Of a stretch of 64,000 bases of DNA, positions 48,877 to 55,064 are shown piece by piece. The DNA lies in NCBI GenBank assembly GCA_004124475.1, contig SCKK01000001.1, forward strand, positions 62,001-126,000, written 5' to 3'. Source of the DNA: Fidelibacterota bacterium (GTDB lineage: Bacteria > Fidelibacterota > Marinisomatia > Marinisomatales > SCKK01). Made by a program: the position numbers and the translations under genes. The notes under the pieces are model-generated. The model was not told the origin of the DNA, ran no database searches, and saw nothing but the letters and a program-made list of their open reading frames with translations. Each line of letters opens with the position of its first letter. The first letter of the stretch is position 1.

Positions 48877-49530
48877 TCCAAGTTCATCTACGCTTTTCCA
48901 AGCATTTGTCCGGCATAAGAAAATCATACAAATAGAATATGAGGAATTATACTAATATTATTGATAGCTTGCTCCTCGTAACGTAGAGTAGAGATGTACC
49001 CCGGGCGAGATTCCCCGCCTACCATCGGGGAGGGAACTCCCATCTTCACTCGCATTACGGCGGACAGGGAATTACTTCGACCTATCCTATTTATCAGGTA
49101 CTTACTAGTTTTAGTGACCATACTTTTTCAAATTGTTCAATGCTGTAAAAAAAGAGCAGTGAACTCATAATACATTTTAGATCGTCGATAAAATATCGGC
49201 AGGGTAGTGAGAGGACGGTGTTTAACTTTTGTAGCGTCTTGGCGAATATTTTTAAAAGTGTGATATTTTTTTTATTGTGGATTGGTGAGTAAGTTATAAC
49301 AATATTTGGCCTATCATATTTCCATAATATTCATTTTATTCCAATATAATTGCACTCATTATTTTATTATGCTTAAATAAAACATAAATAATAAATATTA
49401 TTATATAGATATAGACAAATATTACTGATTTATAATCATATTATTAATCATTATATAAAATATTTTGTTGCATTATTCGATATTATTTTCTACATTTTGC
49501 TCAAATTAAAACGAGTAATAGGAGAAATTA
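48877..49530. other. AT-rich intergenic region, left edge of the accessory island
   Basis: No gene is visible. A CCCCG...CGGGG palindrome lies at 49013-49030. From about 49250 to 49510 the sequence is extremely AT-rich, with many TATTA/TAATA runs. This is a likely promoter and regulatory leader for the operon that starts at 49531. Confidence 0.6.
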
Positions 49531-49746
49531 ATGAAAGAGACAAAAGAAGAACGATTTACGAGAGTGGCTGAAAAACGAATTAATCGTGTTCTTGAAAGCT
49601 TAAGAGTTTTGTCAAATTGTTCAAATCGTAGAATGTACAGTTGGTCGGATGAGCAATTGAAAAAAATATGGTCTACAATTGATAGAGAATTAAGATCATG
49701 TAAACAAAGCTTTGAGAATAAAAAACCAAATAAATTTAGTTTTTAA
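49531..49746 (+). CDS. Small helical protein, first gene of the GHKL-ATPase operon
   Basis: This 71-residue protein is highly charged and predicted to be helical: KEERFTRVAEKRINRVLESL, SNCSNRRMYSWSDEQLKKIW and ELRSCKQSF. It starts 9 bases after TAGGAG. I recall similar small proteins with a KEERFxRLAExR opening near mobile or defence genes, but with no assigned function. It lies 34 bp upstream of the winged-helix-like gene. It could be a regulator or a subunit of the ATPase module. No catalytic motif is present. Confidence 0.65.
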   Translation: MKETKEERFTRVAEKRINRVLESLRVLSNCSNRRMYSWSDEQLKKIWSTIDRELRSCKQSFENKKPNKFSF

Positions 49747-49780
49747 TGAGTTAGATGCAATAAGGACATAAAAAAATAAT

Positions 49781-50425
49781 ATGAAAGATAAATCTAAAAA
49801 TTTGAGTAATATGGACATAGTCATTTATGCACTTTATATTTTAGGGGGTTGGCAAAAACGCATCCAAACTGAAGATATCGCATTGGAATGTTTCAAAATC
49901 GCCCCTAGAAAATTCTCATGGGTAAAATATTCACAGTACCCTGATATGCTTCCATCCTTGTTTGCATTGGAGGCTGCAAAAAAAAAGCAATACGGAGAAT
50001 TAGTTATTGGAGAAACTGAAAGAAAAAAGACAGTTAAAATTATTGGAGGATGGATGCTTACTGTCAATGGTGTTAAGTGGATTAAGGAAAACTTATCCAG
50101 AATTGAACAAAGTTTAAATAAAAATAAAATTGGGGGTAAAAGACTACAAATTGATAGAAAATTGGAAGAGTTATATAGAAGTATAGCTTTTAAAAAGTTC
50201 CTTATTGAAAGTGAAAATACTGAATTCTCTCACGCTGAGTTTGCCGAATCACTAATCTGTACTATAAATACACGATCAGAAAAATTAAATGATCGTTTGA
50301 ATCAGCTTTCATCTATTGCAGAAGAATTGAATAAGGAAGAGGTTAAAAATTATATAGATTTTTGTCGAAAAAAGTTTAGTTCAATACTGGAGTTAAAAAG
50401 AAGTGATTTTAATGCAGAAAAATAA
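49781..50425 (+). CDS. Winged-helix-like protein, second gene of the GHKL-ATPase operon
   Basis: The 214-residue protein starts with a segment that reads like a helix-turn-helix or winged-helix domain: NMDIVIYALYILGGWQKRIQ, EDIALECFKIAP and WMLTVNGVKWIKEN. The second half is coiled and charged (about residues 110-214). The last 14 bases overlap the start of the ATPase gene, indicating translational coupling and probably a joint complex. A DNA- or RNA-binding partner role is inferred. I do not recognise a named family. Confidence 0.65.
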   Translation: MKDKSKNLSNMDIVIYALYILGGWQKRIQTEDIALECFKIAPRKFSWVKYSQYPDMLPSLFALEAAKKKQYGELVIGETERKKTVKIIGGWMLTVNGVKWIKENLSRIEQSLNKNKIGGKRLQIDRKLEELYRSIAFKKFLIESENTEFSHAEFAESLICTINTRSEKLNDRLNQLSSIAEELNKEEVKNYIDFCRKKFSSILELKRSDFNAEK

Positions 50426-52676
50426 AATACCAAATGAGTGGGATCTTGGTGCTCATAGGCGCTATAAGCGTCAGAATATGGAAAGAGCAATGAGGGGGAA
50501 AATCGAGCGTGGGCTTGTGGAACTAATCACAAATACAGATGATAGCTATCGTAGTTTAGAGGAGGAAAGAATACAAGTTTCAGGGAAAATTTTAATTGAG
50601 ATTAGAAGAAAAAAAGGAAGTCCAACTATCGTTAGGGTTCGAGATAGAGCTGAAGGAATGAGTAGATTTGAAATGTATAATAAACTTGGTGAATTGGGTA
50701 AGAGAACTTCAGGGTTCGAAAAAGGGAAGCTACGTAGGGGTCTACATGGTAGAGGTGCAAGAGATGTTGCAGCTTTCGGAACTGTTCATTTTGAAAGTAT
50801 CAAAGATGGATATTATAATCATTTGATAATTCCACCTTCACTAAAATGTAAGTTTGAAAACACACGCCAAAAGAAAGTCAATGATGACATTCGTAAGAAA
50901 CTTGGTATAATGAGGGGCAATGGTACAGTAGTTACGATCCATGTAGAAGGCCGATTTAAAGTTCCTCTGCATGAAAGATTAATTAAAGAATTTTCCAGGT
51001 ATTATCCCTTACGTGATATATTTTCTAATACTAATAGAGAAGTGATACTTTTAGACCTTAATAAAAAACGAAAGGACAAACTTTTTTATAAATATCCTAC
51101 TGGTGAAATTGTACTAGAAAGTGATTTCACAATTCCACATTATTCACAGGCAAAATTTCATTTTATTCTTCGTAAACATAGCTCTCCTTTTGAGCAAGAA
51201 AGCTCTCTTTATAGAGAGGGTATTTTGGTAAAAAGTAATGTTACAATACATGATTGTACGTATTTTGGACTTGCATCCGAACCGTCGGTATGGAGATTTA
51301 CTGGCGAAGTTACCTGTGAATATATTGATGATTTGGTGCGCGAATATGATGACCGTGAAGAATCAGATCCTGATTACCCTGCTCACCCTAAATATAATCC
51401 CCAAAGATTATTAGACCCATTCCGAGAAGGCTTATTTATAGAACACCCTTTTTCACGGGCATTGTATGATAAGTGTAAAGAAATTTTACGACCATTTATT
51501 GAAGAACTAAAGACTGCAGAGGAATCGTCCAAGCGAAACGTTACAAATAAAAAACTCGAGAGTAAATTAAATAGTCTTTCAAAGAAGATCTCAAAAGTTT
51601 TCGAGAGAAAATTAAAGGAATTAGAAGACAGAATACCACCTGGCACAATTGATAAAGGTGCTATTGATAATCTATCCATAGGTTTGCATATTATTCCTCC
51701 GAACGAACAGACAATTATAGTAAATATACCTAAAACATTTTCAATTATAGTCAAGCATTATGAAGCATTAAATAAATCATTGCCTATTAGTATTATTAGT
51801 AGTGATCCTGAGGATGTTAAAATTTCTCCACCATATGTATTTTTGAAGAAACTTTCAGATTACGGAAGAATCGGAAAATCAACGTTCAAAGTAGAAAGCT
51901 CTAAAATTGGTGCTGAAGCTTACATTGAAGCACGATCTAATGGATATGATGCCTCGGTGCTTGTAAAAGTTATTGATCAACCACCGCCTCTTGAATTACC
52001 TGAAGGGCTTTCTTTTGAAAAACTAAAATATCACTTACAAATTAACAAACCAAAAAAGATAGCAATCTGGTTAAAAACCAGCGATAGAATAGAAATACCA
52101 TTAAGAGCACAGATTATTTCTCATTATACTGAAATTATTGTAAAAGGTGGTGGAAGTTGTCGATTTCTAGGAACTGATATACCGGGAGTATATTCTGGAC
52201 ACTGCACCATAGAAGGAAGGCAATTAAAGGCAAAAACAAGAATAACTGCCCATATTAAAGGTTTTGCAATTGCAGAAACTTCTGTTGTTGTAGAGGAACG
52301 TAAACCACCGAGTAGTATAAAGTTAAAGTTTAAACCAGTTGAAGAGGATTTTGGGTCAGTTCGGTATAAATGGGATATTGATGATCCATATTTGTTGTTA
52401 GTTGGGGCTAAACATCCCTCTATTAGGAAATATCTGGGCGAACCAAGTGAAGAGAAGTATCCTGGAATAAACTTTCCAGTATATCACACGATTCTTGCTG
52501 AAGTTATTTCGGAAGCATTAGCGTTTCGAATATTGGAAAAGGAATTCAAGAAAGAAGGAGATGACGGTATGTTAGATTATGAATCTACCGATCTTTATTA
52601 TCACAAGGAATTCTCCGAATTCCTTACAATTGCTCATACGTTTCTAGTCACAGAATCTGTTTCTGAATTAAAATAA
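50412..52676 (+). CDS. GHKL (HSP90/MORC-type) ATPase of unknown system
   Basis: The 754-residue protein has an N-terminal ATP-binding fold of the GHKL type. The N-box is GLVELITNTDDSYRS (Glu and Asn positions conserved, about residues 32-46). The G1-like motif is VRDRAEGMS (about 74-83) and the G2-like motif is GLHGRGARDVAAFG (about 108-121). A transducer-like part, a coiled-coil stretch (about 375-410, KLESKLNSLSKKISKVFERK), several Ig-like strand segments and a C-terminal helical domain with GAKHPSIRKYLGEPSEEKY follow. Start at ATG 50412. There is no nuclease or protease motif. Such ATPases with a small and a winged-helix partner are often found in defence islands. The function is unproven. 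Confidence 0.75.
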   Translation: MQKNKIPNEWDLGAHRRYKRQNMERAMRGKIERGLVELITNTDDSYRSLEEERIQVSGKILIEIRRKKGSPTIVRVRDRAEGMSRFEMYNKLGELGKRTSGFEKGKLRRGLHGRGARDVAAFGTVHFESIKDGYYNHLIIPPSLKCKFENTRQKKVNDDIRKKLGIMRGNGTVVTIHVEGRFKVPLHERLIKEFSRYYPLRDIFSNTNREVILLDLNKKRKDKLFYKYPTGEIVLESDFTIPHYSQAKFHFILRKHSSPFEQESSLYREGILVKSNVTIHDCTYFGLASEPSVWRFTGEVTCEYIDDLVREYDDREESDPDYPAHPKYNPQRLLDPFREGLFIEHPFSRALYDKCKEILRPFIEELKTAEESSKRNVTNKKLESKLNSLSKKISKVFERKLKELEDRIPPGTIDKGAIDNLSIGLHIIPPNEQTIIVNIPKTFSIIVKHYEALNKSLPISIISSDPEDVKISPPYVFLKKLSDYGRIGKSTFKVESSKIGAEAYIEARSNGYDASVLVKVIDQPPPLELPEGLSFEKLKYHLQINKPKKIAIWLKTSDRIEIPLRAQIISHYTEIIVKGGGSCRFLGTDIPGVYSGHCTIEGRQLKAKTRITAHIKGFAIAETSVVVEERKPPSSIKLKFKPVEEDFGSVRYKWDIDDPYLLLVGAKHPSIRKYLGEPSEEKYPGINFPVYHTILAEVISEALAFRILEKEFKKEGDDGMLDYESTDLYYHKEFSEFLTIAHTFLVTESVSELK

Positions 52677-53077
52677 GTCGATATAACTCCATCGTAATTA
52701 AATAAAGATTTTTTATGATAAGTTTGATTGGTCAACTATGAAAAGAAATATCCTAACCTTCGAACTAATTATTTATGGATTCTCCTAAAATAAAGGATAC
52801 ATTAAATTCTATAGTAATATTCATTTTCCATATATTGACATATTCCTTATATGAACCCGTCACAAAAACCATCCTTTTTAAGACAAACTAAAATAATCTG
52901 AAAAACCCATCCCAAAACAGCCTTTTCTGTCTCATAACCTATATCAAAACTCATCCCAAAATCAAAGTCTAACAGGCAATGGAGAGTGCCTGTTAAATGA
53001 GGCTGGTTTTCAACTCCTCTTTGTTTCATGGATTTTTTATTACATTTGACCAATAGGATTTCAATATCGTTTATTGA
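52677..53077. other. Intergenic region holding direct repeat 1
   Basis: The stretch between the convergent ATPase and antitoxin genes has no credible gene. An AT-rich first half is followed by the 140-bp repeat at 52901-53040. Confidence 0.6.
52901..53040 (+). repeat. 140-bp direct repeat, copy 1
   Basis: This matches 54925-55064, same length and orientation, with about 13 mismatches by eye. It includes 50 identical bases from AAAACCCATCCCAAAACAGC on. Each copy contains a hairpin: TAACAGGCA-N8-TGCCTGTTA here. On the minus strand both copies keep an open peptide beginning MSFDIGYETEKAVLGWVF. Confidence 0.85.
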
Positions 53078-53911
53078 TTAAATCTCTGATAACAGTACTG
53101 AATCCGTATAAGGGATTGGCATTCCAATTGCTTTTTGTTTCCAGACCATTTCATTATGAGCAGCACGATACACATCATATTTATTGGGAAATTTTATTGC
53201 GATTCTTTGAATGATTTTTAACTCATCATTTGTTAATGCTTTGGCGTCTGATACATTTGCATGAATAATTTCGTCAATTAAGTCGCTATAATTGTTGAGT
53301 TGGGGACCATAAGGTAGAGCGGCGTAGCTACTGCCTGTTATGCTTTTTCCCAGTTCTCTGAACGATAGCATATCAGCATACCACAAATACTTAGCTGTAA
53401 ATAGTAATTTATCATTTTTAATAAGTAACTTTTTCCCAAGGTACTTTTCAAACTCGAGGATTACTTTTTTCACCCTTGGTATTGAAAATAATTGATTTCC
53501 GGAATGGTCATTTCCTGGTTTCACAGCATTTAATATATTTCGCAGGGACTTGTCCATTGAAACATTCTGAATAGATCCTGTTTCCCATCGTTTAACACTT
53601 GCTATACCAACGCCTAATGATTCTGCAAGAGCTTTTTGACTTAGATTTAATTTAGATCTTAACCTTCTAATTTGTTCTCCGGATAGTAGTCCGACTTTCT
53701 CACGGTATGCATCACATAATTTCCGTTTTATTATGGTTGTCTGTTCAGGAGTACCCGCTTCAAATCCGCAGATTTCACATAAATACTCCTCAACTTTTAC
53801 ACTTACAGGAATATCACGTAATACCGCTTTTTTTCTCATTTCTTTACGTATCATTTTTCCGTGGTTATTCGGACAAATCATTGTTTTATTTTCTCTCATA
53901 TTTAGTGTCAT
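53078..53911 (-). CDS. panA: Panacea-domain antitoxin with MqsA-like zinc/HTH N-terminus (PanA)
   Basis: The 277 residues show a zinc-ribbon-like N-terminus (CPNNH near residue 13, CEICG near 45). A Cro/XRE helix-turn-helix follows (RSKLNLSQKALAESLGVGIA, then SVKRWETGS, about 85-113). The C-terminal DUF4065/Panacea domain has KYLWYADMLSFRELGKSITG, YAALPYGPQL and LTNDELKIIQ. Panacea domains neutralise diverse toxins; the HTH would bind the promoter. The start is one base after the toxin stop. The likely operator is a perfect palindrome at 54270-54289. Confidence 0.85.
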   Translation of the reverse strand: MTLNMRENKTMICPNNHGKMIRKEMRKKAVLRDIPVSVKVEEYLCEICGFEAGTPEQTTIIKRKLCDAYREKVGLLSGEQIRRLRSKLNLSQKALAESLGVGIASVKRWETGSIQNVSMDKSLRNILNAVKPGNDHSGNQLFSIPRVKKVILEFEKYLGKKLLIKNDKLLFTAKYLWYADMLSFRELGKSITGSSYAALPYGPQLNNYSDLIDEIIHANVSDAKALTNDELKIIQRIAIKFPNKYDVYRAAHNEMVWKQKAIGMPIPYTDSVLLSEI

Positions 53912-53912
53912 G

Positions 53913-54263
53913 TTATTTCTTATCTTTATGTAACGAGACCAACCATAGAGTATCGTTTATTATTGCAAATTTGAAGTATGCCTTGCATTTCAAACATCTA
54001 CTTTCCCAAGCAAAGGCAAAAAGATCACTGCCCTTAATTTTACTTTTATAGGATTTTTGAGGAGGTCGCGATCCAACGTAATCATTTGGTGTAATTTCGT
54101 CTAAAATGGTTGATATTGTTTCCTGATCTGCATCACAGTCCAATTCAATAAGATCCAATGCAAAGGGTACGGGATCTACTATATCAAACTGATTATTTTT
54201 GACAAATTTTTTAGCAAGATTGATTTTCCCATTTAGCTCTTTATATGTTGGTCTGTTTATCAT
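53913..54263 (-). CDS. Putative toxin paired with the Panacea antitoxin (PanT)
   Basis: This 116-residue protein is encoded directly upstream of the Panacea antitoxin in the same transcript, with 1 bp between them. Its C-terminal half has the pattern RPPQKSYKSKIKGSDLFAFA, WESRCLKCKAYFKFAI and NDTLWLVSLH, which resembles small toxins found with MqsA/HTH-type antitoxins. The toxic mechanism cannot be read; an MqsR-like RNase fold is possible. The toxin-first order matches the MqsRA arrangement. Confidence 0.7.
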   Translation of the reverse strand: MINRPTYKELNGKINLAKKFVKNNQFDIVDPVPFALDLIELDCDADQETISTILDEITPNDYVGSRPPQKSYKSKIKGSDLFAFAWESRCLKCKAYFKFAIINDTLWLVSLHKDKK

Positions 54264-54269
54264 AATTTA

Positions 54270-54289
54270 ATGGTATCATATGATACCAT
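54270..54289. promoter_or_regulatory. Perfect 20-bp palindrome, likely toxin-antitoxin operator
   Basis: ATGGTATCATATGATACCAT is a perfect inverted repeat, 7 to 26 bases upstream of the toxin start codon at 54263. This is the expected place for autorepression by the antitoxin HTH domain. Confidence 0.8.
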
Positions 54290-54566
54290 GCAACAGTAAT
54301 TTGTAATGGACTATTAAAATATTTACTAACATTTCTCACTTCATATTAATAATACAACTGTAATATGATCTGCATGTAACGACATAGATAATTCAAAATA
54401 AGCTAAAATATGGTTAAACTAAAAAATGACCATTTTAAAAATGGCGTTAAGAAATTCTACGAAAAGACCGTTAAGAAAAATAAACTGTTTGAACGAAGTG
54501 AGTTTTTATTTTTTAGGCATTTTCATTGAATTTTAGCAACATTTTTAAACCGGTCTTGATTTTTTG

Positions 54567-54592: not shown

Positions 54593-54924
54593 AAAGAGGT
54601 TGTTTTAGGAGATATCAACGGTTATTGAGAAACTGCCTGCCTGTCGGCAGACAGAAAAGAATTCATTTTGAAAAAATATTAGTGATTTATACTTCACCCT
54701 TTTCCGCAGGATACTGTGCACAGGATTTACCTTTTTCCCGAATACAAAGTGTTGAGAGGATTACCTGCTTACCATAGTGCCAGCACCTGCCTACGCACAG
54801 CGTGCAGGTAGACAGGCAGGATGGAGGATTTACAAACCGGCGGAGGTTTTCAAATCACGTTTTGAAGTGAGAAATGTTAAATATTTAGTTAACTATACTT
54901 CTTTAAACAATCCAAAATTATCTC

Positions 54925-55064
54925 AAAAACCCATCCCAAAACAGCCTTTTCTGTCTCATAACCTATATCAAAACTCATCTCAAAATCAAAGCCTCACAGG
55001 CAGGGGAGTCTGCCTGTTAAATGTAGCCGGTTTTCAACTCCTCTTTGTTACAAGGATTTTTTAC
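54925..55064 (+). repeat. 140-bp direct repeat, copy 2
   Basis: The partner of 52901-53040. The hairpin arms are kept (ACAGGCA/TGCCTGT) while the 8-base loop differs (GGGGAGTC against ATGGAGAG). The two copies bracket the Panacea toxin-antitoxin pair. Confidence 0.85.

Follow-up and report, generated by a model that had tools for sequence, protein, structure and literature searches.

ATPases with the GHKL-S5 fold, such as GyrB, MutL and HSP90, close as dimers around DNA or a client protein on binding ATP, and the tie between GHKL ATPases and restriction systems has been recognised since 2008. Prokaryotic MORC and paraMORC1-5 are the GHKL ATPases of restriction-modification systems (Iyer, Abhiman and Aravind 2008, PMC2292703), and VcSduA (paraMORC3) is a GHKL-Shedu protein that carries a fused nuclease in the same chain (PMC12137116). 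Other immune operons are preceded by regulators: CapK-CapS, CapW/BrxR and CapH-CapP lie upstream of operons of diverse kinds (PMC13373217, PMC9122601), and CapK-CapS are STAS-domain proteins (PMC13373217). Here we analyzed an operon in a 64,000-nucleotide stretch of DNA (the window) from a Fidelibacterota bacterium (Table 1). We propose, with a probability of about 0.58, that it is a horizontally moving defence core, in which an ATP-closed clamp is loaded by P0002, and P0001 serves as an exchangeable regulator.

Table 1. Features of the operon and its surroundings in the window, and features of related loci (L numbers).
Feature	Location	Strand	Description
P0001	49531-49746	+	71 aa; optional, exchangeable front gene, common to other GHKL operons
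P0002	49781-50425	+	214 aa; predicted winged helix and helical C-terminal domain; constant partner of the GHKL ATPase
P0003	50412-52676	+	754 aa; predicted GHKL+S5 ATPase; beta-rich and C-terminal helical domains present, nuclease domain absent
Operon leader	49224-49530	+	AT-rich; Shine-Dalgarno-like AGGAG directly 5' of the P0001 ATG
Direct repeat	52867-53039 and 54891-55063		173 nt, copies 88% identical; flanks the toxin-antitoxin-like pair
Toxin-antitoxin-like pair	53078-54263	-	MqsA-type (TIGR03830) antitoxin fused to a Panacea domain; 116-aa protein with no assigned family upstream
Pair on viral contig	L002 7215-10393		Winged-helix gene, GHKL gene and 92-aa gene on a 129-kb viral contig
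Transcription-type proteins beside the pair	L233 5605-8316; L230 4112-5596; L019; L024		Proteins with RNA polymerase alpha-CTD and/or sigma-70 region 4-like domains, adjoining the pair
P0001 region in phage ORFs	L099 3497-4231; L101 3252-4100; L102 2712-3521		C-terminal part of longer metallopeptidase-like (HExxH-like) ORFs
27-member sister clade	L044, L046-L050, L052, L054-L056, L060-L062, L065-L071, L073, L076, L077, L079-L082		GHKL ATPases of about 633 aa without a winged-helix partner

The tight packing noticed in the first-pass annotation was borne out: three + strand reading frames are separated by a gap of 34 bp (P0001 to P0002) and an overlap of 14 bp (P0002 with P0003, read from its ATG at 50412). 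The AT-rich island that it placed between other genes is also real, with a GC content of 31-35% over approximately 49000-54500 compared to roughly 40-46% in the flanking genes. Relatives of all three proteins occur elsewhere in the same gene order, and the arrangement is therefore not due to chance. Promoter-like matches in the leader were no more frequent than expected by chance, and an Rfam search of the island returned no family. The toxin-antitoxin-like pair lies beside the operon and is about 98% identical in a genome of the same genus, which also has a copy of the direct repeat.

P0003 contains the GHKL motifs as first described, comprising an N-box (E37, N41, D44), G1 (D78, G82) and G2 (G110, G113, G115), and alignment with 44 relatives demonstrated that E37, N41, D44, D78, G82 and G115 are invariant. 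Its AlphaFold2 model (mean pLDDT 87.7) has a GHKL fold and then an S5/transducer domain, followed by a two-helix linker (residues 346-406), beta-rich domains (424-627) and a helical C-terminus. Pfam returned only a sub-threshold match to HATPase_c_3, NCBIfam had no match for P0001, P0002 or P0003, and PDB sequence searches with the operon proteins gave nothing useful. In agreement with the first reading, no nuclease domain was detected in P0003 by the profiles of Pfam, PADLOC-DB and NCBIfam. By sequence, P0003 qualifies as a GHKL+S5 ATPase whose ATP-site motifs are intact and which has no nuclease, and it is predicted to hydrolyze ATP. Foldseek related the model to GyrB/ParE, topoisomerase VI-B and HSP90 (E about 1e-11 to 1e-13), a likeness that would fit clamp, chaperone and topoisomerase-like activity alike.

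P0002 was modeled by AlphaFold2 (pLDDT 89.2) as an H-H-H-E-E winged helix followed by helices, which favors the winged-helix character initially suggested for it, although Foldseek gave only weak matches to PadR/MarR (E>0.1). Pfam had no credible family for this protein. The counterpart of P0002 in L230, which lies beside a distant ATPase of the L088 type, is 27% identical to it (E=3e-9). Topoisomerase VI subunit A also starts with a winged helix and Foldseek aligns P0003 to topoisomerase VI-B, so that P0003 and P0002 might be the B subunit and a reduced A subunit, respectively, of a degenerate type IIB topoisomerase. However, the best-conserved tyrosine of P0002 is present in just 30 of 47 relatives and a Toprim domain is lacking, and we consider such an origin very improbable.

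Single-sequence scans with P0003, and a pseudo-alignment based on other motifs, found no relatives. Relatives were recovered with a pseudo-alignment of invented rows in which only the N-box and G2 motifs were kept; these rows were used as a pattern only, and each match was confirmed by tblastn with P0003 itself. This motif-guided scan of GTDB genomes identified 125 relatives of P0003, of which 80 were kept, and one more on the 129-kb viral contig. The relatives of the operon span about 20 phyla, and those nearest to P0003 (58–72% identity) are in Nitrospinota, Nitrospirota and Chloroflexota. Co-occurrence, which the first-pass annotation had proposed to test for all three genes, was found for two of them: a P0002 homologue lies directly beside the ATPase in 47 of the 81 related loci, the window's included. 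It is downstream of the ATPase in L037, L042 and L059 and upstream in the other loci, and the start/stop distances between the two genes range from -89 to +45 bp. Because this set had been found via the ATPase, the search was repeated from P0002 alone, with positive results in 19 of 400 Chloroflexota and 4 of 246 Nitrospirota genomes. A GHKL gene adjoined the P0002 homologue in all 23 (one link being split over two contigs), and in three of these it was of the distant type first met on an Ensifer plasmid (L088). By this measure of gene linkage, the conserved unit is a pair of genes, winged helix (wH) and GHKL, that crosses phyla, and P0002 is a predicted winged-helix protein genetically inseparable from its GHKL ATPase family.

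In the P0003 tree, the wH-linked clades mix phyla. Within the window's own phylum P0003 was found in one of 245 genomes, its own, and was absent from the other 244 searched. The same-genus genome (about 93% complete) is without P0003; its contig is 96–98% identical through uvrA and the toxin-antitoxin pair and ends at about position 53417 of the window, inside the pair and before the operon. On the strength of the mixed clades and of these two absences, we read the operon as a probable horizontal acquisition in the window's lineage. The same distribution bears on the possibility that the pair has a housekeeping role in DNA repair, chromosome maintenance or protein folding, similar to HSP90, MutL or a topoisomerase, and is unrelated to defence. 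The fold matches are to housekeeping GHKL enzymes, and the sister clade without the winged-helix partner clusters largely by phylum, as an ordinary gene would; its members are probably single genes with a different role. Single housekeeping genes without conserved partners, which the first-pass annotation had set against its own proposal, are thus what the sister clade resembles and not what is seen in the wH-linked clade. The patchy, phylum-crossing spread of the pair, its absence from the rest of the phylum and from the same-genus genome, and restriction and toxin-type neighbors where recA has housekeeping ones make a housekeeping role rather doubtful.

The pair could instead be the cargo of mobile elements or a counter-defence, serving a plasmid or phage and not host immunity. 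It occurs on one viral contig (L002) and is therefore not confined to host immunity; solitary P0001 genes are carried by Synechococcus phages and further viral contigs, those of phages S-H34 and S-CRES3 among them, and P0001 is also found on plasmids; and a serine recombinase lies near the pair in L013, with ORF6N proteins among the neighbors elsewhere. However, tblastn with P0003 found no match in 72,556 plasmids or 50,697 phage records, nor did a central relative match any of the plasmids. Most occurrences of the pair are chromosomal, and the stretches read around them show no clear hallmark genes of phages or plasmids. A host defence that travels on mobile elements would have a similar appearance, and we give the cargo explanation only an outside chance.

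To characterize the setting of the pair, up to two of the nearest genes of at least 100 aa were taken on each side in about 42 modules (140 proteins), the same procedure was applied around recA in the same genomes as a control (120 proteins), and the 25 commonest families were compared in each set. The commonest Pfam families beside the pair were N6_N4_Mtase (7), ORF6N (4) and Fic (4), with two each of N6_Mtase, Mrr_N, ResIII, UvrD, PDDEXK_1, PIN and recombinase, and type II methylases were the commonest PADLOC models. The recA neighbors were RecX, LigT, RNase Y, CinA and other housekeeping genes, and no defence family was among the 25 commonest families of the 120 proteins, although low counts are possible below that rank. 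Defence-type neighbors thus accompany the pair, in the 140 proteins set against the 120 beside recA, as an association only. In one locus (L013), a Shedu SduA_C nuclease is encoded 43 bp downstream of P0001-wH-GHKL. Elsewhere, a methylase-HNH protein (L032), methylases (L025, L009), a GIY-YIG-type protein (L019), an Mrr nuclease (L038) and a pPIWI-associated nuclease (L031) lie near the pair, and in L003, the closest full-length relative, a DUF559 protein is found 3 bp upstream. Many other loci have ordinary neighbors such as DnaG, DNA polymerase X and Mfd, and no effector is constant across the loci. Proteins related to the transcription machinery adjoin the pair in four loci (Table 1).

A further explanation makes the pair a stress-responsive regulator like CapK-CapS or VapK-VapS-VapC, in which P0003, as a GHKL kinase, phosphorylates or remodels the winged-helix repressor P0002 and thereby controls nearby genes. 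A GHKL protein does adjoin a wHTH protein, PIN (VapC-like) genes are directly upstream in L026, L051 and L057, and immune operons of various kinds have such regulators in front of them (PMC13373217). We nevertheless find regulation of this type unlikely, given that P0003 carries the S5/transducer domain of GyrB/TopoVI/HSP90-type ATPases, that Pfam matched no STAS domain in the operon proteins, P0002 included, and that the pair usually forms a separate operon, after which no particular gene recurs as a target. A defence role for the operon is probable. The candidate defence module put forward in the first-pass annotation is supported in its conserved partners, horizontal spread and defence-type neighbors, but its three-gene core was wrong, since the core consists of the winged-helix and GHKL genes. 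No system catalogued in PADLOC-DB 2.0.0 (2023) corresponds to the operon, the matches being weak and biologically incoherent (best E 1.6e-4).

P0001 has no credible Pfam family, and no WYL, HTH or kinase match was found in Pfam or NCBIfam; a PDB sequence match to influenza HA2 looks like helical noise. Within the wH-GHKL family it is present in the window and in about ten other loci, and is by its distribution optional, where the first-pass annotation had a module of three genes. These copies are part of a larger protein family. When plasmids were searched with one copy of P0001, 14 records were returned, and a GHKL ATPase directly followed P0001 in eight of the nine contexts read (L092 being the exception). 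Five of these eight ATPases are DUF6339/Dcm/Vsr-linked, two precede an OLD-like ATPase and UvrD, and one is of the L088 type with a winged-helix gene. Among sampled genomes, P0001 was found in 2 of 400 Chloroflexota, 7 of 182 Patescibacteria, 3 of 189 Actinomycetota and none of 190 Bacillota. A GHKL gene was in the operon of P0001 in 10 of 11 new genome contexts, for which the chance probability is about 1e-16 at an assumed background of 2%, the contexts being not fully independent; in the exception, L232, P0001 precedes a GIY-YIG-like gene and a type III restriction system. Overall, P0001 precedes a GHKL ATPase in 18 of 20 plasmid and chromosome contexts that were found without reference to GHKL, and none of 369 genes near recA matched the P0001-linked GHKL ATPases.

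By phmmer, at least seven sequence groups can be told apart among the ATPases linked to P0001, and similarity between the groups is slight or absent. Between L220 and L234, the P0001 copies share 83% of their amino acids and, over 202 bp that span the small gene only, 84% of their nucleotides, yet the GHKL types after them are unrelated to each other, suggesting that the small gene has been shuffled between operons. P0001 averages about 42% identity across the GHKL groups, and the ATPases of those groups mostly cannot be aligned. Conservation of P0001 while the ATPases diverge suggests that its conserved surface faces something constant, probably a host factor, DNA or a phage product and not the ATPase only; a regulator or sensor would be its likeliest role. 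The occurrence of P0001 without GHKL in phages rules out a GHKL-only protein, and in some phages the region forms part of longer ORFs (Table 1). The phage copies suggest counter-defence. It is conceivable, as a tentative extension that we do not favor, that P0001 serves as a common subunit or switch of at least seven unrelated GHKL immune systems (wH-GHKL, DUF6339/Dcm/Vsr-linked, OLD+UvrD-linked, SIR2-linked and others) by binding a constant cellular or phage cue, and that the solo phage copies are decoys or inhibitors.

Several of the operons reached through P0001 have distinct compositions. P0001, a GHKL protein of 620-650 aa, a protein of about 280 aa and DUF6339 occur together in L085, L086, L087, L090, L084, L096 and L098; these operons adjoin Dcm, Vsr and type II nucleases and are apparently undescribed. 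In a plasmid operon (L089, L091), P0001 and a 621-aa GHKL protein are joined to an OLD-like ATPase and a UvrD helicase, which form a Gabija-like pair. Another type of GHKL protein, of about 780 aa, follows P0001 in L228, L219 and L235, with a SIR2_2 protein next in L228. Several of the GHKL proteins found in this way have no Pfam match; P0001 is a marker for GHKL operons missed by profile libraries, and could therefore be used to find and group new systems.

In the defence core that we propose, P0003 would form an ATP-closed dimeric clamp like GyrB, topoisomerase VI-B, MutL or MORC. P0002 would bring this clamp to DNA, recognizing some feature of foreign DNA as it enters or replicates, and closure of the clamp would block that DNA. 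Closure may also license a neighboring effector in some relatives, such as a Shedu or Mrr nuclease, a methylase-HNH protein or a GIY-YIG protein. No effector gene is present in the operon in the window, so that here either clamping alone or a nuclease elsewhere would act. P0001 may act as a regulator or adaptor common to GHKL systems, holding them inactive or tying them to one cellular signal, and it moves from operon to operon. A clamp that closes on foreign or abnormal DNA, and for which a neighboring gene provides the effector in some genomes, is the most economical reading, because it accommodates the winged-helix partner, the nuclease and methylase neighbors and the dimer closure of GHKL-S5 ATPases. 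The clamp idea could be tested directly on a nuclease-less wH-GHKL core whose neighboring nucleases differ by genome.

In searches of the open literature we found no report of the wH-GHKL pair, of DUF6339 or of the association of the small protein with GHKL operons, and we read the two-gene core as unreported. P0001 is genomically similar to CapK-CapS, CapW/BrxR and CapH-CapP as a small front gene common to otherwise unrelated operons, but its association is with operons that contain a GHKL ATPase, and a transcriptional role is only putative. The GHKL plus transducer fold of P0003 is that of topoisomerase VI-B, GyrB and HSP90, whereas the operon has no Toprim or catalytic-tyrosine partner and sequence similarity to these enzymes is negligible. 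Closer parallels are found in MORC and paraMORC, which share the GHKL+S5 architecture, a sporadic spread across phyla, and neighboring DNA methylases and restriction nucleases (PMC2292703). P0003 is not a MORC, as the S5-domain motif GhXhhpXXRhl was found in none of 44 sequences by regular expression, and its family lacks the constant SFII helicase partner, having a winged-helix gene as constant partner instead. Unlike in paraMORC, no fused RE-fold or TIR domain was matched in P0003 by Pfam; paraMORC1, 2, 4 and 5, compared by description, have their own C-terminal extensions or motifs (ExxxH, TIR, HxH), of which TIR had no Pfam match here. Assignment to paraMORC3/GHKL-Shedu was also rejected, as P0003 has no DUF4263/SduA_C nuclease and its modeled C-terminus is beta-rich and helical. 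GHKL-Shedu nevertheless offers a functional likeness, since there a GHKL ATPase is joined to Shedu, and in L013 an SduA_C gene stands beside P0001-wH-GHKL.
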